Virus record (IMG/VR): IMGVR_UViG_3300021963_000034
Coordinates: 62,001-126,000 of that record
Origin: a virus
Direction: 5' to 3' (one strand)
Length of the DNA: 64,000 bases
Shown here piece after piece: positions 1,844 through 64,000 of this stretch; the first letter of the stretch is position 1; the number at the start of each line of letters is the position of its first letter. Under the pieces are notes generated by a model. That model saw only the letters and a program-made list of their open reading frames with translations. It was not told the origin of the DNA and ran no database searches. The translations under genes and the position numbers were made by a program.

Positions 1844-2113
1844 ATGAAATACAGAATAGATGCCAGATATGTTTGGTATAACAAAGGATCAATGGTTGTT
1901 CTTATGTATTTCATAAACCAGATTCCTTTTACTTTTGATGAACTCCCTGACGAATCTATATTTGACTTGGAGTTAGTAGAATTAGCAGACAAAGAAAGAA
2001 GGTTTGAACCAGAAGATCTATACCAGTCTTCTTACTATCTAATGATGGAAGAATGTCATCCTTTATTATACGAACTTGATCTGGAAAATCCTGAAATGTT
2101 GCCTGTTGATTAA
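1844..2113 (+). CDS. hypothetical acidic protein
   Basis: An 89-residue protein, strongly acidic (many D and E in residues 30-89) with an aromatic N-terminus (MKYRIDARYVWYN). No known motif is recognised and no transmembrane segment is convincing. It has a late-type promoter box 23 bases before its ATG and lies between the tRNA-Leu intron and the HNH endonuclease gene. Confidence 0.65.
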   Translation: MKYRIDARYVWYNKGSMVVLMYFINQIPFTFDELPDESIFDLELVELADKERRFEPEDLYQSSYYLMMEECHPLLYELDLENPEMLPVD

Positions 2114-2114
2114 G

Positions 2115-2141
2115 TTTGTAACTATAATAAATAGTTACAAA
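2115..2141 (+). promoter_or_regulatory. perfect inverted repeat with a late promoter box inside, upstream of the HNH gene
   Basis: TTTGTAACTAT (2115-2125), loop AATAA, ATAGTTACAAA (2131-2141) form an 11-bp perfect hairpin. The late box ATAAATA (2127-2133) spans the loop and 3' arm. Transcription from it would start near 2139 and lose the hairpin, whereas read-through RNA keeps it 13 bases from the ATG at 2155. The layout matches the leaders of the other three homing endonuclease genes here. Confidence 0.7.
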
Positions 2142-2154
2142 TCATATTTAAAAT

Positions 2155-2511
2155 ATGAAAACCTGTACTAAATGTGGACTATCCAAATCACTAACAGAAT
2201 TTCACTCTGCTGGTATAATAGATGGTAAAAAATATCTTCGTGGTGAATGCAAAGTTTGTCAGAAGAAAGTTGTAAAAGCAAGGACAAAATCTATTAAAGA
2301 AGATTATGTTTCTTGGAAAAAAACTTTGAAGTGTACCAGGTGTGGGTTTTCTGATTATCGTGCCCTCCAATTTCATCATATTGATGAAAAAGAGCATACT
2401 ATTGCAAATATGTTCCGTGGTGGATTTTCTCTAGAAAGTATAAAAAAAGAAGCAAAAAAGTGTGAAGTTCTTTGCGCCAACTGCCACCAAATACACCATT
2501 CGCCCCTATAG
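2155..2511 (+). CDS. HNH homing endonuclease (freestanding)
   Basis: A 118-residue protein. An N-terminal zinc finger-like unit (C4, C7, C32, C35) precedes a second C-x2-C (C60, C63). The HNH core follows: HH at 74-75, then C107-x2-C110 with N109 and H111 in VLCANCHQIHH. The family makes site-specific DNA nicks or breaks that promote spread of its own gene or a neighbouring intron. The last ten bases of the gene lie inside the tRNA-Thr gene; the stop TAG is 2509-2511. It begins 404 bases after the tRNA-Leu intron, so it could serve that ORF-less intron in trans (inference). Confidence 0.88.
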   Translation: MKTCTKCGLSKSLTEFHSAGIIDGKKYLRGECKVCQKKVVKARTKSIKEDYVSWKKTLKCTRCGFSDYRALQFHHIDEKEHTIANMFRGGFSLESIKKEAKKCEVLCANCHQIHHSPL

Positions 2512-2574
2512 CATAACGGTTACTGCATCCGCCTTGTAAGCGGAAGATTTTCGGTTCGATTCCGAATGGGGGCT
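2502..2574 (+). tRNA. trnT(UGU): tRNA-Thr (anticodon UGU)
   Basis: The acceptor GCCCCTA (2502-2508) pairs with TGGGGGC (2567-2573) with one T-G wobble; discriminator is T2574. The anticodon stem TCCGC/GCGGA encloses loop CTTGTAA, giving anticodon TGT, which reads ACA. The T arm TTCGG-TTCGATT-CCGAA is perfect. CCA is not encoded. The 5' end overlaps the HNH coding region by ten bases, so processing of this tRNA would truncate the HNH message. Confidence 0.95.
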
Positions 2575-2592
2575 CTGAGTTCTATAACTCCA

Positions 2593-2751
2593 ATGTCACT
2601 TATTTCACAACAAGACCGCCAAATGGTCATTGAAGCACTTGAATATTATGTTCAAAAACTTAAGGAAGATAACTGCACTCCTGCCTCTATCAGTGCATTC
2701 CAAACCCTCCTTAACTGGGTCGAACTGGAGCATTTCAAGCATGAAAATTAA
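2593..2751 (+). CDS. small hypothetical protein
   Basis: A 52-residue protein starting MSLISQQDRQMVIEALEYY, largely helical. The in-frame start at 2566 would lie within tRNA-Thr, so the ATG at 2593 is preferred. Its 3' end overlaps the next gene by 11 bases, suggesting coupled translation. No function is recognised. Confidence 0.65.
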   Translation: MSLISQQDRQMVIEALEYYVQKLKEDNCTPASISAFQTLLNWVELEHFKHEN

Positions 2752-2914
2752 TCTTTGGTATTGTAAAGACATGAAACAGTGGCGTTGGGTTTTAACTGAT
2801 GATAGTAGACCTATTCTTAAACAGGAATCTGGTCAGCAACCATTTCTCCGTGATGCTATGAATGATGTGGCAAATACTGTAGAATATATGTTAGAATGCA
2901 AACAAAGTGAGTAA
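2741..2914 (+). CDS. small conserved cyanophage protein
   Basis: A 57-residue protein, MKINLWYCKDMKQWRWVLTD..., ending with a helix that includes AMNDVANTVEYMLE. I recall very similar short proteins in cyanomyoviruses, with no known role. The ATG at 2741 overlaps the end of the upstream gene; the longer frame upstream is only its shadow. A terminator follows two bases after the stop. Confidence 0.75.
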   Translation: MKINLWYCKDMKQWRWVLTDDSRPILKQESGQQPFLRDAMNDVANTVEYMLECKQSE

Positions 2915-2916
2915 TT

Positions 2917-2967
2917 GGAGGCAGCAACTAGTGTCTTGGCGGATTTAGTTGCGTAAGGCCTCCTTTT
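2917..2967 (+). terminator. rho-independent terminator with an unusual 15-base loop
   Basis: GGAGGC (2917-2922) pairs with GCCTCC (2958-2963) and GCAACTA (2924-2930) with TAGTTGC (2946-2952), followed by TTTT. The loop (2931-2945) contains GTGTCTTGGCG, the exact complement of the bases just before the next start codon. Confidence 0.8.
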
Positions 2968-3004
2968 ATAGTATAATAAATAATAATAGTCAACGCCAAG
3001 ACAC
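2931..3004 (+). promoter_or_regulatory. long-range inverted repeat flanking a late promoter, ahead of the GIY-YIG gene
   Basis: GTGTCTTGGCG (2931-2941, the terminator loop) is the perfect reverse complement of CGCCAAGACAC (2994-3004), which ends one base before the ATG at 3006. Between them lies the late box ATAAATA (2976-2982), with an expected start near 2988. Read-through RNA can pair the loop with the initiation region. Late RNA lacks the left arm and stays open. Confidence 0.75.
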
Positions 3005-3005
3005 A

Positions 3006-3572
3006 ATGAACGAATACTACACTTACGCATATTTGCGTGAAGACGGAACACCTTACTACATTGGCAAAGGTAAAGGAAGAAGAGTTTATAATAGTCACAT
3101 TAGACAAAACAAAACAAATTTAAAACCTAAAGATAGTAGTAGAATTCTTCTTTTAAAGAAAAATCTTACAGAAGAGGAAGCAAGTAAACACGAAATTTAT
3201 ATGATTTATGTGTTTGGAAGAAAAGATTTAGGAACTGGTATTCTTCGTAATATGACTAATGGTGGAGATGGAATATCTGGATATTCTCATACCGAAGAAA
3301 CTAAAAAACTTCTTTCAGAAAAAACTTCTGGAAAAAATCACACTTGGTATGGGAGGGAACATACCGAAGAATCAAAAAGGAAAATGAGAGAATCTAGTAA
3401 AAATAGAGAAAGAAAACCTCATAGTGAAGAAACAAAAAAGAAAATGAGGGAGTCTGCTAAAAAATATTGGAAAGATGTAGGTAGAAATATTAATGGGGAA
3501 AATAATCCCTTTTATGGAAAATCACACAGTGAAGAAACTAAGAAAAAAATAGGAGATAATGTTAGGAAATGA
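3006..3572 (+). CDS. GIY-YIG homing endonuclease with NUMOD3-type repeats
   Basis: A 188-residue protein. The N-terminal GIY-YIG domain appears as YYTYAYL (4-10) and PYYIGKGKGRR (16-26), with the conserved arginine pair. At least two NUMOD3-like DNA-binding motifs follow (HTWYGREHTEESKRKMRES and NNPFYGKSHSEETKKKIG). The protein stops directly after the last one, so a longer C-terminal domain may be missing. The family makes double-strand breaks in cognate phage DNA and spreads by repair. The start at 3006 is chosen because the motif begins there and the leader inverted repeat ends there; the 2949 start would lie in the terminator. Confidence 0.88.
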   Translation: MNEYYTYAYLREDGTPYYIGKGKGRRVYNSHIRQNKTNLKPKDSSRILLLKKNLTEEEASKHEIYMIYVFGRKDLGTGILRNMTNGGDGISGYSHTEETKKLLSEKTSGKNHTWYGREHTEESKRKMRESSKNRERKPHSEETKKKMRESAKKYWKDVGRNINGENNPFYGKSHSEETKKKIGDNVRK

Positions 3573-3590
3573 GTACAAATACTTAGTTTT

Positions 3591-4232
3591 ATGAAAAGTG
3601 ACTTCTATATAGAAAGAGTGACCAAAAAGGAACTTGAATCACTCCTTTTAACTTATCATTATCTTAAAGATGAGAGTAAAACATACAAGTCGGGTTTCAA
3701 CTATGGACTTTATAGAAACACTTTCACAGATGTCCTTAGAATTGGCAACTGTCTTGGTGCTTGCATTTTTACTGGTCTCCCAGTTCCAGAAATAGCAAAA
3801 GGAGCATTTGGATTAAATCGTAATGAACAACAAGGACTTTTCGAACTTTCAAGACTTTGCATCGAACCTAGTACGCAGTCACGAGAATATAACATCACTT
3901 CTTGGTTTGTGTCAAAGGCGATTAGACAACTTCGAAAAGATACTGAAGTTAAAGCAATCCTTTCTTATGCTGATTCAAATCACCATTCTGGTACAATTTA
4001 TCGCGCTTGCAACTTTAAGTATTACGGTCTCACGGATCGAAAAAAAGATTTCTATTATTCAGACGGAACTAAACACTCTCGCGGAAAAGTAAAAGGTTCT
4101 GAAGGTGAGTGGAAAGAAAGAAGTAGGAAGCACAGATACTTAATGGTATTTGATAAAAAACTTCAAAAAAGGTTGACTTGGAAAGAAGAGTCGTGGTATA
4201 ATAATCAAGACGATACTGAATCGTTACAGTGA
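3591..4232 (+). CDS. Mom-like putative DNA-modification protein (GNAT-type fold)
   Basis: A 213-residue protein with the motif set I associate with phage Mu Mom relatives: ELSRLC (85-90), NITSWFVSKA (101-110) and SYADSNHHSGTIYRACNF (125-142). In Mu, Mom modifies adenine and protects phage DNA from restriction. If the likeness holds, this protein would modify cyanophage DNA against host nucleases. The C-terminus is basic (KERSRKHRYL), fitting nucleic-acid contact. It begins 18 bases after the GIY-YIG stop and ends just before a strong terminator. Assignment is by motif memory only. Confidence 0.6.
   Translation: MKSDFYIERVTKKELESLLLTYHYLKDESKTYKSGFNYGLYRNTFTDVLRIGNCLGACIFTGLPVPEIAKGAFGLNRNEQQGLFELSRLCIEPSTQSREYNITSWFVSKAIRQLRKDTEVKAILSYADSNHHSGTIYRACNFKYYGLTDRKKDFYYSDGTKHSRGKVKGSEGEWKERSRKHRYLMVFDKKLQKRLTWKEESWYNNQDDTESLQ
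4173..4202 (+). promoter_or_regulatory. possible sigma70 promoter inside the 3' end of the Mom-like gene
   Basis: TTGACT (4173-4178), an 18-base spacer ending in an extended -10 TGG, and TATAAT (4197-4202). It points at the terminator only about 50 bases away, so its product would be an RNA of about 65 nt or an RNA that reads through into the fibre gene. It may be a chance match. Confidence 0.4.
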
Positions 4233-4250
4233 CCCAAAAAGTGTGACTTC

Positions 4251-4276
4251 AAAACCTCCTTTTGGAGGTTTTGTTG
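4251..4276 (+). terminator. rho-independent terminator
   Basis: AAAACCTCC (4251-4259), loop TTTT, GGAGGTTTT (4264-4272): a perfect 9-bp stem ending in a T-run. It separates the small-gene region from the fibre genes and is nearly symmetrical, so it could act in both directions. Confidence 0.88.
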
Positions 4277-4280
4277 TATG

Positions 4281-4287
4281 ATAAATA
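4281..4287 (+). promoter_or_regulatory. late promoter box ATAAATA
   Basis: ATAAATA lies directly after the terminator and 30 bases before the ATG of the giant fibre gene at 4318. T4-like phages use TATAAATA-type boxes read by a gp55-type sigma factor, and cyanophages use ATAAATA or CTAAATA. Confidence 0.8.
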
Positions 4288-4317
4288 ATCCATAACGGAA
4301 CTATAAGTATTAATAAG

Positions 4318-7300
4318 ATGGGTCTTTCACGTCTCGATAATTTTCTGAAATCAGTACGCGGAACGATTTTATATGTTGATCCAAATAGTATTGACTCTAC
4401 AGATAGCATTGAAAATCAGGGCAATAGTTTAACTAGACCATTTAAAACAATTCAACGCGCACTTATTGAGGCAGCAAGATTCTCATATCAAAGAGGATTG
4501 GATAATGATAGATTTGGAAAAACAACAATTCTTCTTTATCCTGGAGATCATATTGTAGATAATCGTCCTGGATGGATACCATTTGAATCTAATAATTATT
4601 TGCTTAGAAGTGGAGCAACTTCTAATGTATTTCCTCCATTCGATTTAACATCAAATTTTGATTTAACTTCTCAAGATAATCAACTTTATAAATTAAATTC
4701 AATACATGGTGGAGTTATAATCCCAAGAGGAACTTCTATTGTTGGTTTAGATCTTAGAAAAACTAGAATTAGACCACTCTATGTGCCAAATCCTGAAAAT
4801 AATAATATTGAAAGATCTGCAATTTTTAGAGTAACTGGATCTTGTTATTTTTGGCAATTTACTTTCTTAGATGCAGATCCTAATGGTGTATGTTATAAAG
4901 ATTATACTACAAATACTTTTGTTCCTAACTTTTCTCACCATAAATTGACTGCATTTGAATATGCGGATGGTGTAAATTCTGTGAACATTGCAGATGACTT
5001 TTTGATATATTCTGCTGAAAGAACTGACTTGGATATGTATTATGAAAAAGTTGGTCTTGCATATGGACAAGCATCTGGAAGAGAAGTTCAACCAGATTTC
5101 CCTGTTGCTGGAATTAATATTCAGTCAAAAGTTGATGAATATCGTATTGTAGGATCTCGTGGTGCTGAGATTGGTATTTCAAGTATTCGTGCTGGAGATG
5201 GAGTAACTGCAACCACAACTATCACTGTAGACCTACAAGAAGTTCTTCCTGGACTAGACGTAGATACTCCAATTAGAATTGAAGGTGTAGGCGTAGATGG
5301 TTATGATGGACAGTTTGTTATCAGTGAAGTCAATAGTCCAACTCAAATTTTATATAAAGTTCAAAACCCACCATTACAAGCACTTCCTTCCCTCACCAAC
5401 GCAACATTAAATATAACAATTGATACTGTTACTTCAGCATCTCCATATATTTTCAACTGTTCGCTAAGATCCGTTTATGGTATGTGTGGAATGCTTGCTG
5501 ACGGAAGCAAAGCGGATGGATTTAAGAGTATGATTGTCGCCCAGTTTACTGGTGTCGGTCTTCAAAAAGATAATAGAGCGTTTGTAAAATATAATTCTTC
5601 ATCGGGAACATATGAAGACTTCACTGCATTTGGTAACGAAAATATTCAATCTGATAGTCGAGCAGTATATAAACCTTCTTATGAAAATTTTCACATCAAA
5701 TGTCAAAATGATGCATATATCCAAGTAGTATCTGTATTTGCTATTGGATATGCTGGTCAATTTGTTGTAGATACTGGTGGAGATCAATCCATCAATAACT
5801 CAAATTCAAACTTTGGAGCAAAAGCTCTTGTAGCAAAAGGTTTTAGAAATAGTGCATTCTCCAGAGATGATGTTGGATATATTACTCACGTTATTCCTCC
5901 CAAGTTCTTAGAAACTACAGAGGTAAATGTTGAATATGATTCTATCGATGTTAGTAAGACCGTAAGTGTTGGAAATACAAGTAGATTATATCTTTATAAC
6001 CAAAATAATCAAGGCGTTTCTCCAGAAGGTGTTATAGAAGGTTATCGTTTAGGTGCCAAAATTAATGATACTCTTAATGTTTTAATTAACCAAGGAGGAA
6101 GTGCAACTGAGTATTCTTCTAAAATTGTCATGCCAAGCAGTGAAAATACTGCTTCAGAAAAGAAATTTATTGTGGGAAGAAGCACTGTAGGAATTAATAG
6201 TATTGCATCAAATACTATTACATTCACAAAGTATCATACTTTTGAAAATGGAGAAACTGTTCGTGTAATATCTAATACAGGTCAACTTCCAGATGGATTA
6301 GAACCAAATCAAACTTACTATGCAATTACTTCTGGTGTTGGTACTGATAGAATAAAACTGGCAAAAACTCTCAATGATGCAATTAGTTTAAATGCTCTTA
6401 CTATTAATAGTAAAGGTGGAGTTCTAAATGTTATCAGTAGAGTTTCTGATAAAAAACCTGGAGATTATGGACATCCTATTCAATATGACACTACAAACTC
6501 TCAGTGGTATGTAAATGTTTCTTCAGCATCAACCGAAAATACAATTTATCCTACAATTGTTGGGTTGGGAACAACTGTTCTTGGTTCTGCAACTCCTAGA
6601 ACATATATTAAGAGAAATCCTGATACAAGAAGTGTAATTGATACTGCATATAGACTCCGTTATGTAATTCCAGCAGATTCAACTCTCTCCGGTCGTATAC
6701 CAATTGAAGGATATGTAATTCAAGAATCAAATAGTTCTATTGGATCTTTAAACGCAGAAGTTGGATATCAATTCCATCCAACAGGTGCAACACTTTCTAA
6801 TTCTACTCAACTAAGAAATCCAAGAATTATTGCGAATGCAAGTTGGTCTTCTGGTACTGCAAGAATAGTAACAGAACTTCCTCACGACCTTCAGGTTGGA
6901 TCTACTGTTGAAATAGTAAACATTAAGAGTACTAATAATACTGCGGGAATCGCTAATACTGCTTACAATGGCACATTTTCCATTTCTGGAATTAGTAGTG
7001 CAAAACAATTTACTGTGAGCATTCCAAATAATCCAGGAACATTCACAAACGATACCTCAACTAGAACAACATCTCTACCATATTTTAGAAAAAAACAGTT
7101 TAAAAATACTTATATTGTCTATAAGAGTCAGGAAATCCAAAAGTACATTCCTGGTGAAAGGGATGGAATATATCATTTGATTGTTGTTAATGCATCAAAT
7201 TCGCCTTCAATATCTCCATTTGAAAACGAAAAGTTCTTACAACCAATTCAAAATCTATACCCACAAACAAATAGAGATAATCCAAACTCAGATCCAAAAG

Positions 7301-60065: not shown

Positions 60066-60295
60066 TGATGACTGACGAACAAAAACTCACACTTCTTCTC
60101 AAAGTTCTCAAAGAATACGCAGAGAAGGAACACTGCTACAATAGGTATGGTGATGATTTCAATCCAAATGATTATACTAGTGGTGATGTTGCCTTTGAGG
60201 TAGGTGCTGATTATGGTGAGATTACCTTTGCCCGCACACTTTTAGAACAGATTGGTGTAGAATTTGAACATCCTGTGATGAAAGAAAATGACTGA
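60065..60295 (+). CDS. small hypothetical protein
   Basis: 76 residues starting MMTDEQKLTLLLKVLKEYAE, mainly helical, with acidic loops (DDFNPNDYTSGDVAFE). An ATG three bases on is equally possible. Its start resembles that of the gene before it, suggesting duplication. Confidence 0.64.
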   Translation: MMTDEQKLTLLLKVLKEYAEKEHCYNRYGDDFNPNDYTSGDVAFEVGADYGEITFARTLLEQIGVEFEHPVMKEND

Positions 60296-61124
60296 CCTTA
60301 AATTCACATCACCAAGTGGAGAAACTACCCTAAAAGTTGAAGATACTGGTAGAATAGGAACAGTAGCACCTAAAACACAACTACACATTAAAATGGATGA
60401 ACCTGTGAAATACGAAACTCCTATGACTGCGATTGAAGATATTGAGGCACAAATCAAAGTGCTTCAAAGTAAGTTGGAATTTTATAAGGAGTTGGAACGA
60501 ACAAAAACTCCTTGCGAAGAAGCATATAAAAGAGTTTATGGTAATTATCCTACGACTCATATTACTGATGGATGTTGGGACAGTCCAACTTGGATGCACT
60601 TTGTGAATGGATATAAGTCCGCACAAAAGGATTATAAGGTGGGAGAGTTTCAAGAAACTGTACAAGAACGAGGAGAACGACTTCATAAGGATGTGGAAAG
60701 AACTGTTCGTGAGAGTGTGAAATGGTGTGAAGAGCATCCAGATACAGACCCATTAGATTGGTTGAAACCACAGACACCAGAGCAAACCGAACAATCACTC
60801 AAAGAGGCATTTAGAGAGGCACAACAAACGGAAAAGTGGAAAGAACTTCAAAGAAAGATTGATGAAGAAGATAATGATAAGAACTTCAAGAACTCTCTTG
60901 ACCTTATCAAAGAATGGGGTGAGAAGAATAAACCACCCACTCTAAAAGAACTCTTGTGGGAATGGTGGGAAGACATCTTTACTGTGGATGCTGATTTAGA
61001 TGCTGATGCTTCTATTGATGTTCTTGTAGATATTATTGATAAAAAGTTTATTCCACCTTCAAGTGAAAAGAATGGGTATGAATGGGAAAAGTGCTTGAAA
61101 ATTATGAGGGATAAATTGAGGTAG
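60288..61124 (+). CDS. hypothetical protein, largest of the small-gene block
   Basis: 278 residues. A beta-like head (LKFTSPSGETTLKVEDTG), then long charged helices (AIEDIEAQIKVLQSKLEFYK; REAQQTEKWKELQRKIDEED). The central PTWMHFVNGYKSAQKDYK is tryptophan-rich. No family is recognised; the coiled-coil character suggests an oligomer. A late promoter box starts immediately after its stop. Confidence 0.67.
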   Translation: MTDLKFTSPSGETTLKVEDTGRIGTVAPKTQLHIKMDEPVKYETPMTAIEDIEAQIKVLQSKLEFYKELERTKTPCEEAYKRVYGNYPTTHITDGCWDSPTWMHFVNGYKSAQKDYKVGEFQETVQERGERLHKDVERTVRESVKWCEEHPDTDPLDWLKPQTPEQTEQSLKEAFREAQQTEKWKELQRKIDEEDNDKNFKNSLDLIKEWGEKNKPPTLKELLWEWWEDIFTVDADLDADASIDVLVDIIDKKFIPPSSEKNGYEWEKCLKIMRDKLR

Positions 61125-61132
61125 TATAAATA
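61125..61132 (+). promoter_or_regulatory. late promoter box TATAAATA (upstream of the inverted repeat)
   Basis: Directly abuts the stop codon of the 278-residue gene, 14 bases before the left arm of the inverted repeat at 61146. RNA from here would contain both arms, unlike RNA from the inner box at 61197. Confidence 0.7.
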
Positions 61133-61145
61133 CAAATGTCTATAG

Positions 61146-61216
61146 AACCCGCAATCTCTACAGATAAGATTAGGTGCTTTAGGGCACCTTTTCTATTATA
61201 AATAGAAGTGCGGGTT
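61146..61216 (+). promoter_or_regulatory. inverted repeat, terminator and inner late promoter ahead of an HNH endonuclease gene
   Basis: AACCCGCA (61146-61153) and TGCGGGTT (61209-61216) are exact complements. Between them lie a terminator, AGGTGC (61172-61177)/GCACCT (61184-61189) followed by TTTT, and the late box TATAAATA (61197-61204). Late RNA from the inner box would start about at the right arm and lack the left one. Confidence 0.78.
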
Positions 61217-61229
61217 TAATAGAATAGAA

Positions 61230-61934
61230 ATGAACTATCTAAAGGTTTATTGTAATCTTATCAGGAAAGCAGAGAACAGAACTCCTCCTGAAGGTTATAC
61301 AGAAAATCACCATACATTTCCAAAAAGTATTTTTGGAAAGAATAATAGAATTGTCGTGCTTACTGGAAGAGAACATTACATAGCACACGCATTACTTGAA
61401 AAAGCATTTATAAAGAGATATGGATTGAATAATATAAAAACGCAAAAAATGATAAAAGCATTTTGGTGTATGAATAATCAAAAGACAAAAAATACATATT
61501 TGAATTCTCATTTATATGAAAGTTCAAGAATAAGATTTATTGAAAATATAAAAGGAGAAAATCACTACTGGTATGGAAAAAAACATTCCCAAAAAACAAG
61601 AGAAAGAATGAAAGAAGCACAAAAAGGTGAAAATCATCCAATGTATGGTAAAACTCATACTGAAGAGACAAGAGAAAAAATGAGTAAATCTCATTTAGGA
61701 AAACCATCATCAAAGGGAATGTTGGGTAAAAAACAAACTGAAGAAGCAAAACAAAAAATAAGAGAAAGTAAAGAAGTCAAATCTTTTTCAGTAATAAGTC
61801 CTACTGGTGAAATAATTCATTCTAAAAATACTAAACAATTTTGTAGAGATAATAATTTAGATAAAGGGCACTTTTCTCAAGTTTTGAACGGAAAACGACC
61901 AATTCATAAAGGATTTCGTCTCTATACTGGATAA
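61230..61934 (+). CDS. HNH homing endonuclease with NUMOD3-type repeats
   Basis: 234 residues. The N-terminal domain YTENHHTFPKSIFGKNNR (23-40) with H49 and H53 in REHYIAHALL is an HNH variant widespread in cyanophages. Three NUMOD3-like DNA-binding units follow (ENHYWYGKKHSQKTRERMKE, ENHPMYGKTHTEETREKMS, and SKGMLGKKQTEEAKQKIRES), with a C-terminal helix-turn-helix-like end (TKQFCRDNNLDKGHFSQVLN). It probably recognises a long site and spreads by homing. It interrupts the early gene run, and its leader has the hairpin/late-promoter layout. Confidence 0.85.
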   Translation: MNYLKVYCNLIRKAENRTPPEGYTENHHTFPKSIFGKNNRIVVLTGREHYIAHALLEKAFIKRYGLNNIKTQKMIKAFWCMNNQKTKNTYLNSHLYESSRIRFIENIKGENHYWYGKKHSQKTRERMKEAQKGENHPMYGKTHTEETREKMSKSHLGKPSSKGMLGKKQTEEAKQKIRESKEVKSFSVISPTGEIIHSKNTKQFCRDNNLDKGHFSQVLNGKRPIHKGFRLYTG

Positions 61935-63636: not shown

Positions 63637-63857
63637 GGTTTGAAAATCCAACAAAATGGGAAATCTTCCTTGATGGTTTCCATAACTTCTGGAACTGCCT
63701 GGATTGTTATAATGATGGTGATACTTGGGGATACGATGAGTTCTGGGAAGGATTAAATCTTGGGTTTTATATGATGGAAATTTATGACTATGATGACCCA
63801 TTTAATCCATCTGTTTTGAGTAAGCAAAGGAAAAGGTTGTATGGAATTTATGAATAA
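63633..63857 (+). CDS. small aromatic-acidic protein
   Basis: 74 residues, rich in W, F, Y, D and N (WEIFLDGFHNFWNCLDCYND; WGYDEFWEGLNLGFYMM), ending basic (KQRKRLYGIYE). Resembles in flavour the aromatic small proteins at 57381 and 54940. No family is recognised. Its stop overlaps a late promoter box. Confidence 0.65.
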   Translation: MRFENPTKWEIFLDGFHNFWNCLDCYNDGDTWGYDEFWEGLNLGFYMMEIYDYDDPFNPSVLSKQRKRLYGIYE

Positions 63858-63860
63858 ATA
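63854..63860 (+). promoter_or_regulatory. late promoter box ATAAATA (upstream of the inverted repeat)
   Basis: Overlaps the stop codon at 63855-63857, eight bases before the left arm of the next inverted repeat. It has the same outer-box position as the box at 61125. Confidence 0.6.
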
Positions 63861-63867
63861 GTCGTAC

Positions 63868-63949
63868 CTAATTTGGTGGTTCTTTTTAGGTTGGGATAAA
63901 GCACCTTCGGGTGCTTTTCCTGTATAAATACTAATAACCACCAAATTAG
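63868..63949 (+). promoter_or_regulatory. 14-bp inverted repeat, terminator and inner late promoter ahead of a GIY-YIG gene
   Basis: CTAATTTGGTGGTT (63868-63881) and AACCACCAAATTAG (63936-63949) are exact complements, ending nine bases before the ATG at 63959. Between them are a terminator, AAAGCACC (63898-63905)/GGTGCTTT (63910-63917) with a TTCG loop, and the late box TATAAATA (63923-63930), whose start site would fall at the first base of the right arm. Confidence 0.82.
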
Positions 63950-63958
63950 AGTAGATCT

Positions 63959-64000
63959 ATGAAAGACCCTAACAGGTTTTATACTTACGCATACCTGCGA
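63959..64000 (+). CDS. GIY-YIG homing endonuclease, N-terminal fragment (runs off window)
   Basis: Only 14 residues are visible: MKDPNRFYTYAYLR. The phrase YTYAYLR is the same as in the GIY-YIG protein at 3006 (YYTYAYLRED), and the leader has the same inverted-repeat/terminator/late-promoter architecture, so this is very likely a second gene of that family. Confidence 0.75.
   Translation, partial: MKDPNRFYTYAYLR

Follow-up and report, generated by a model that had tools for sequence, protein, structure and literature searches.

The window analyzed here is a stretch of 64,000 nucleotides from a virus record of 153,555 bases. By DNA comparison, most relatives of this record are Synechococcus phages, and S-SRM01 ranks first among them. 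The record (G000) may be a fragment; no homolog of the late sigma factor gp55 was found in it, while the same query retrieves gp55 from five of five named cyanophages. Early in the window, a small gene and a Mom-like DNA modification gene are separated by an inserted unit that consists of an RNA module and a homing endonuclease gene. Among the best 80 relatives of the small gene, the Mom-like gene comes directly next in 37 (GTGAGTAA and then AAATACTTAG), and in three, as in the window, hairpin, promoter, and a GIY-YIG gene lie between; 39 have another arrangement and one is cut. Judged by this comparison, module and gene insert together, as one travelling unit. The locus comprises the following features:

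2741–2914, + strand: small upstream gene (57 amino acids), whose TAA is the left insertion edge (comparison of relatives)
2915–3576, + strand: inserted unit of RNA module and GIY-YIG gene, edges within a few bases (comparison of relatives)
2917–2963, + strand: class I hairpin with stems 2917–2922/2958–2963 and 2924–2930/2946–2952 and the bulge GTAAG at 2953–2957 (fold, covariation)
2931–2941, + strand: antisense arm A, within 2931–2945 between the inner stem strands (sequence, covariation)
2964–2967, + strand: T run after the hairpin, a putative terminator tail (sequence; not called by the terminator scan)
2975–2982, + strand: late-type promoter AATAAATA between the arms (sequence)
2994–3004, + strand: arm A′, close to where the late mRNA is expected to begin (sequence, covariation)
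3006–3572, + strand: GIY-YIG/NUMOD3 homing endonuclease gene (188 amino acids; Pfam, PHROG)

The ORF at 3006–3572 matches Pfam NUMOD3 (1.6e-23) and the homing endonuclease family PHROG 314 (5.6e-19); the Pfam GIY-YIG model was not among its matches. Directly behind the inserted unit follows the Mom-like gene (3591–4232; Pfam Mom 2.9e-23, PHROG 1384). A weak HNH-like ORF at 2155–2511 (Pfam match below the cut-off) ends inside a tRNA-Thr gene (2502–2575).

Arm A, GTGTCTTGGCG, is the perfect reverse complement of arm A′, and a single base separates the end of A′ at 3004 from the ATG at 3006. The first-pass annotation had described an 11-base loop antisense of the start region, ending one base before the GIY-YIG start codon, and this description is exact and correctly placed. 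The two arms are the sole 100% complementary inverted pair among the pairs listed for 2401–3700. They reach a duplex score of 11, compared with a maximum of 9 (in 4/221) for swapped arm regions of 45 late-promoter genes from the virus record. This match is not due to chance. For the bare A–A′ duplex, −19.0 kcal/mol is predicted.

The hairpin itself had been annotated as a terminator with a 15-base loop. Fifteen bases do lie between the inner strands (2931–2945), but in the predicted fold weak pairs close part of this stretch and leave four bases open. Stem and TTTT are those of an intrinsic terminator, with TTTTAT immediately 3′ of the outer stem, but the 5-base bulge and the 15 bases between the inner strands are not. 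A terminator scan that accepts loops of 3–8 bases does not call the hairpin, so that termination at this site is putative. As an element beyond the first-pass annotation, a promoter, AATAAATA, lies between the arms and fits the late promoter motif NATAAATA reported for cyanophage S-PM2 (PMC2984593). With the promoter in this position, late mRNA would be without the antisense loop and arm A. Its start presumably lies near 2988, following the T4 spacing rule.

A second, shorter complementarity exists between TGCGTAAG (2950–2957), which belongs to the hairpin and holds the bulge GTAAG, and CTTACGCA (3022–3029) in the first codons of the endonuclease gene. It may merely reflect a conserved protein motif; the bulge GTAAG is invariant in 19/19 aligned class I modules.

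Further copies of the module and the genes behind them

Beyond what had first been annotated, the module occurs before several endonuclease families and is present in two more copies in the window. In an unselected scan of the late-promoter genes of the window's virus, three of 45 sites carry a module (at 2931, 61139, and 63868), all before genes that are homing endonucleases by profile, and one additional match of score 8 has no module. The second and third copies are composed as follows:

61125–61132, + strand: P1 of the second module, TATAAATA, directly after the stop of ORF 60288–61124 (sequence)
61139–61153, + strand: arm A of the second module (arm scan)
61172–61192, + strand: terminator-like hairpin AGGTGC...GCACCT with T run (sequence)
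61197–61204, + strand: late promoter P2 of the second module, TATAAATA (sequence)
61209–61223, + strand: arm A′ of the second module (arm scan)
61230–61934, + strand: homing endonuclease behind the second module (PHROG 655, 3.2e-37; NUMOD3, 1.4e-22; HNH-like by eye)
63853–63860, + strand: P1 of the third module, AATAAATA, which shares bases with the stop codon of the preceding gene (sequence)
63868–63881, + strand: arm A of the third module, 14 nt, in a hairpin at 63867–63890 (arm scan)
63898–63918, + strand: terminator-like hairpin with T run (sequence)
63923–63930, + strand: late promoter P2 of the third module, TATAAATA (sequence)
63936–63949, + strand: arm A′ of the third module, 14 nt (arm scan)
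63959–64000, + strand: start of a second GIY-YIG endonuclease gene, which continues beyond the window end (profile)

The corresponding scan of S-SRM01 revealed seven modules at 96 sites. Six of them precede genes that either match an endonuclease profile or belong to the same GIY-YIG family as the window's gene, and the seventh fronts a gene of no named family (L487:16459–17139). Further matches in S-SRM01 without the module layout have scores of 10 (one), 9 (four), and 8 (three), and swapped controls reach at least 9 in 8/474. Among named phages, the module is found in S-SRM01, Sf-CH5, and B23 and, by eye, in S-B05 and RB11-B. The S-SRM01 match of score 10, at L491:7326–7374, is a 10-nt inverted repeat with TAAATA between its arms. 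It spans the ATG of a gene resembling endonuclease VII (Pfam 1.2e-14) and, lacking the module, has the appearance of a simple hairpin that covers the start in the manner of T4.

The module has two architectures. In class I, the terminator-like hairpin that contains arm A has the GTAAG bulge. The end of A′ falls, in 27/28, within a span from 1 nt inside the ATG to 3 nt upstream of it, and inspection of the upstream regions revealed no clear SD. In class II, arm A occupies a small hairpin; an ordinary terminator-like hairpin, distinct from the first, comes next, and then TATAAATA and A′. Here A′ begins 4–5 nt after TAAATA in 54/64, where the late mRNA is expected to start, and ends 5–16 nt 5′ of the ATG in 64/64, and may therefore leave the start codon uncovered. 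A T run follows the hairpin in 188/192 class II modules but in only 51/69 of class I (absent in 18), which further qualifies the annotation of the class I hairpin as a terminator.

The class II modules, whose hairpin is preceded by a late promoter and followed by a terminator, are another addition to the first-pass annotation. The upstream promoter, P1, is represented by a TAAATA box 6–13 nt 5′ of arm A in 63/64 (shuffled: 2.0), and by the full motif NATAAATA in 45/64. Sequence searches for the terminator-plus-promoter arrangement, which covered loci L167–L422 and left out L423–L462, gave 129 distinct sites among the matches listed, 10 short and 59 duplicate sites having been dropped; 124 have arms, and 123 of these 124 have P1. 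A score of at least 10 is reached by 99/129 real sites and by 70/1269 swapped ones among the matches listed, although some loci in the swapped controls have arms in common through descent. Of the five arm-less sites among these matches, three precede endonuclease-group ORFs and two another gene, which we take to resemble a baseplate hub. In L251, L260, L328, and L406 (class II), the arms are kept (scores 8–12) with no ORF of at least 40 amino acids behind them, and these are perhaps decayed endonuclease genes.

By sequence, class II thus has the own promoter and terminator of a free-standing antisense small RNA gene, from which a separate antisense RNA of ~55 nt is predicted; in the third module this RNA would extend roughly from 63866 to 63918. 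At the site of the third module, P1 is present in the window and in 3/3 module-carrying relatives, and TAAATA in 0/77 module-less ones (best 80 relatives; module absence judged by eye from 75 bases each, with one of the 77 cut), which suggests that P1 belongs to the module and comes with it. Before the class I hairpin of the window, inspection revealed no clear P1 or TAAATA box, so that the transcript of the upstream gene would here carry arm A at its 3′ end. For class I in general, a P1-like TAAATA ending 4–8 nt before the hairpin was detected without mismatch in 12/68 and with at most one mismatch in 36/68, where shuffling leads one to expect about 0.4 and 6 cases, respectively (0.086 and 1.199 per distance).

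The predicted unpaired fraction of A in the antisense RNA has a mean of 0.46 in class I, for which the stretch used ended inside the outer stem, and of 0.56 in class II, and is at least 0.6 in 6/69 and 67/192 modules, respectively. With only about half of A unpaired, display of the arm in an open loop is not clearly predicted. A′ is mostly unpaired in the predicted leader (means of 0.71 and 0.77).

The module-bearing ORFs form 24 N-terminal groups, some of which are chance matches before structural genes. By profile they include GIY-YIG, HNH, and further homing endonucleases as well as endonuclease VII; for some groups, no named match was obtained. Most of those tried in PHROGs are HNH, homing endonuclease, or endonuclease VII proteins. 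The top PHROG matches of the S-SRM01 class I protein (L002) and of L190 are of unknown function, with weak endonuclease matches lower down; L231 and L487:16459–17139 had no PHROG match, and all families matched by L266 and L182 are of unknown function. In Pfam, five other module-bearing ORFs and the S-SRM01 GIY-YIG protein had no match above the cut-off. Profile comparison with the window's GIY-YIG alignment detected no similarity for the L487 family (8 aligned) and no clear similarity for the L266 family, one member of which (L485:18053–18700) matches PHROG 314. L182:1445–2080 and L190:5310–5723, two module-bearing ORFs without a Pfam family, both fall into PHROG 5018 (unknown function), and by motif we assume a resemblance to PD-(D/E)XK nucleases. 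In L060, Rfam identifies a group I intron and an abiF RNA (3883–4144) ~1–1.5 kb downstream of the module-bearing GIY-YIG gene. Of 93 A′ cores, 25 occur with at least two ORF groups, which suggests that the RNA part is exchanged between genes.

Covariation of the arms

From 172 listed matches to the GIY-YIG protein, 134 distinct upstream regions were retained after removal of duplicates, short upstream regions, and startless cases. The duplex score is at least 10 in 75/134, compared with 30/1328 swapped controls (which again include loci sharing arms by descent), 3/134 reversed controls, and 8/134 direct-repeat controls. Arms with a score of at least 8 and TAAATA between A and A′ are present in 92/134 regions; the score is below 8 in 39/134. 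The arms are spaced 42–64 nt apart. In S-SRM01, Sf-CH5, and B23, arm and pre-start sequence differ from those of the window, yet match each other. The first-pass annotation had made its case depend in part on conservation of the pairing in related phages, where it is indeed kept through compensatory change. Of the double lock proposed there, the pairing half is conserved; the termination half is less so, and the late promoter between the arms had been overlooked. Two class I copies, L056 and L061, have hardly any sequence between hairpin and late promoter and no T run, and the pairing is kept there without an evident terminator. The GIY-YIG relatives in ACG-2014f, S-N03, and RN05-S lie at most 22 nt from the preceding gene or overlap it.

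Class I hairpins were also collected by stem sequence alone. Of 66 found, 65 were usable (the short locus L171 being left out) and 41 distinct; A′ has a score of at least 9 in 65/65, and the gene behind belongs to the window's GIY-YIG family in 50, the remaining 15 having other ORFs or none of size. In an alignment of 19 non-redundant class I modules, both sides have changed in 14/21 pairs. Double-changed cells number 61 (20.2 after shuffling), and the covariation score is 0.437 (0.162 after shuffling), values to be read in the light that the 19 rows were picked for arms of at least 9, so that the A–A′ helix is partly selected, and that two rows misaligned in the arms (L136 and L171) are retained. 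Once the partner is slid by 1–3 columns, the covariation score is 0.097 or less. A MAFFT alignment of 26 class II modules brought the arms out of register and was left out of the pair counts. A–A′ is a pseudoknot-type helix with A in a separate hairpin, and not one continuous local stem-loop of the T4 type; single-RNA folding cannot display such loop pairing.

The imperfections of the arms are informative about the molecule that pairs. In 62 distinct arm pairs, the internal non-Watson–Crick pairs are 15 G·U, no A·C, one T·T, and one T·C. A larger and noisier pool of 144 distinct pairs, derived from 299 modules that include some chance matches at score 9–10 before structural genes, contains 26 G·U, 2 A·C, and 15 others, against a swapped baseline that is itself uneven (165 to 89). 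Selection for symmetry in DNA or copying from a template predicts equal numbers of G·U and A·C. The G·U excess therefore fits plus-strand RNA, and points to A and A′ co-varying in this form.

If the arm had been copied by template switching at a quasi-palindrome, the match would result from mutation and not from selection, and no RNA function would be required. The short distance between the arms (42–64 nt) and their very good match are compatible with this origin, but it predicts G·U and A·C alike where 15, 0, and 2 others are observed; moreover, the arms keep their position relative to the hairpin and the promoter, and other late-promoter genes of the window's virus and of S-SRM01 have few, mostly weak matches. 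We consider such an origin highly improbable. A role at the DNA level, with the inverted arms serving as operator of the endonuclease or as ends of an invertible segment, could be envisaged because the arms flank a promoter and because I-TevI represses itself by binding an operator that overlaps its late promoter (PMC2988022). However, the arms differ among related endonucleases and some are common to unrelated ones, which is the opposite of a protein site, and the mismatch asymmetry is a feature of plus-strand RNA, so that a DNA-level role is scarcely to be expected.

A putative antisense switch and its closest known counterparts

The sequences point to an antisense switch, an as yet undescribed type of RNA switch, that would keep phage endonuclease genes quiet. 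It is rather probable, in our view, that it constitutes a mobile module of the homing endonucleases of T4-like cyanophages, which represses translation in cis on read-through and in trans on late mRNA. The upstream RNA that carries A would end at or after the hairpin. On read-through, A would clamp A′ in cis and block translation; late mRNA, starting after A, would be translatable like that of T4 I-TevI. On the ended RNA, A could act in trans on the late endonuclease mRNA, pairing with its 5′ end and dampening its translation, and in class II, A would be located on the dedicated RNA of ~55 nt transcribed from its own late promoter P1. Such repression might serve to restrict an enzyme that cuts genomes to small amounts and to late stages. 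Repression probably employs both routes, with the trans step less certain than the cis step. Points that weigh against this reading are the class II duplex ending short of the ATG, the arm A left only about half open in the predicted folds, the relatives with duplex scores below 8, the class I modules lacking a T run, the window hairpin missed by the terminator scan, and the gp55 homolog not found in the virus record.

For the cis step there is a precedent. In T4 I-TevI, an RNA structure over the ribosome site prevents translation of early and middle transcripts, and a late promoter frees the late mRNA (PMC2988022); layouts similar to I-TevI are described for segB and Aeh1 mobE (PMC2988022, PMC3014915). 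By the logic of these genes, a clamp on read-through RNA is plausible (PMC2988022). The pairing could even act solely in read-through transcripts, with the late mRNA free and no separate antisense RNA, and would then be a variant of the I-TevI/segB/mobE hairpin whose 5′ strand was moved into a hairpin of its own. The window copy without a clear P1 and the late promoter between the arms, which is the T4 layout (PMC2988022), are in line with this simpler scheme. So is the absence of any sign of selection against cross-pairing within one genome: arms are cross-compatible in 11/154 pairs against a permuted mean of 6.6, some pairs being counted twice owing to overlapping TAAATA boxes, and since such arms are not avoided within genomes, they lend no support to trans action. 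However, arm A of class II is bracketed by P1 and a terminator-like element (63/64 and 123/124, the latter among the matches listed), P1 travels with the module, a late promoter making just locked read-through RNA has no evident use, and a terminator between the arms opposes read-through. Restriction to cis thus appears doubtful to us, and we favor repression by both routes.

Pairing might also have the reverse effect if the antisense segment shielded the 5′ end of the mRNA or opened its start. Class II A′ starts at the expected late mRNA 5′ end (54/64), as would suit a shield, and leader structures improve initiation in T4 genes 25 and 38 (PMC3014915). The class I duplex, however, ends at or near the ATG in 27/28 and should block 30S binding, and most of A′ is predicted to be open in the leader anyway (0.71 and 0.77), which renders a helping role very unlikely. 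If repression in cis and trans is extended further, the module might represent a mobile family of trans-acting antisense RNAs with ever-changing arms, passed among different homing endonucleases. Its tandem late promoters would yield a small hairpin RNA and, immediately downstream, an endonuclease mRNA beginning with the complement of the antisense segment. The RNA would then act on a selfish gene in the manner of a type I antitoxin, and a resident copy could silence a same-armed incomer during co-infection; we advance this extension tentatively.

Homing endonucleases are selfish genes, for which cutting at the wrong time should be avoided. In the accessible parts of reviews, few cases of control of free-standing homing endonucleases are known, and these are of the T4 type. 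The RNA module is compact and repeatable, and its 62 distinct natural arm pairs make the rule that a segment pairs with the start and a late promoter escapes directly testable; they might also provide ready-made RNA switches for cyanobacteria. If the proposed switch exists, a same-strand tandem antisense layout would be added to phage regulation, and a regulatory RNA would move inside a selfish element across several endonuclease families.

As far as the accessible parts of the sources cited here extend, the T4 hairpin is the described control that comes nearest to the module, and among antisense RNAs the nearest precedents are C4, sar, and CfrI. C4 is encoded upstream of its target on the same strand and has segments complementary to the leader. 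This antisense RNA of phages P1 and P7 lowers the expression of genes of its own operon, and in this respect resembles the module (PMC8198154). Unlike C4, the module has late-type promoters for both RNAs and endonuclease targets, and Rfam 15 gave no RNA-family match, C4 included, at the modules searched (window 2000–4500; L002, L005, L018, L030, and L060). In type I toxin–antitoxin systems such as IstR-1/tisB, a small RNA gene lies beside its target and is complementary to the target leader; the present module differs by its same-strand tandem layout, late phage promoters, and endonuclease target. The sar RNA of phage P22 is encoded on the strand opposite to its target, at a single locus and not in a mobile module. 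Like the predicted class II RNA, it is a small phage RNA (68/69 nt) pairing with its target, the ant mRNA, and it inhibits the synthesis of the antirepressor (PMC12197685). In contrast, the elements described here are on the same strand as their target and form a mobile module. CfrI of cyanophage S-PM2, with ~225 nt, is antisense to an endonuclease gene and psbA (PMC2984593, PMC12197685). It is thus also a cyanophage antisense RNA tied to a homing endonuclease gene, but the present element is on the same strand as the gene and its complement is short.

No description of such a module was found in the open-access literature, subscription papers being mostly outside this scope. With T4 I-TevI, I-TevII, I-TevIII, segB, and Aeh1 mobE, and also T4 e and soc, the module shares an upstream RNA strand, which here may cover the translation start, and with those of these leaders that sequester the ribosome binding site of an endonuclease it shares a homing endonuclease gene and a late promoter that lets late mRNA escape (PMC2988022, PMC3014915), this promoter being located between the pairing strands (92/134; AATAAATA in the window). 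Unlike in the T4 leaders, the 5′ strand resides in its own hairpin, with a terminator-like element between it and the start and, in class II, a promoter of its own; moreover, endonucleases of different families are served by one module.
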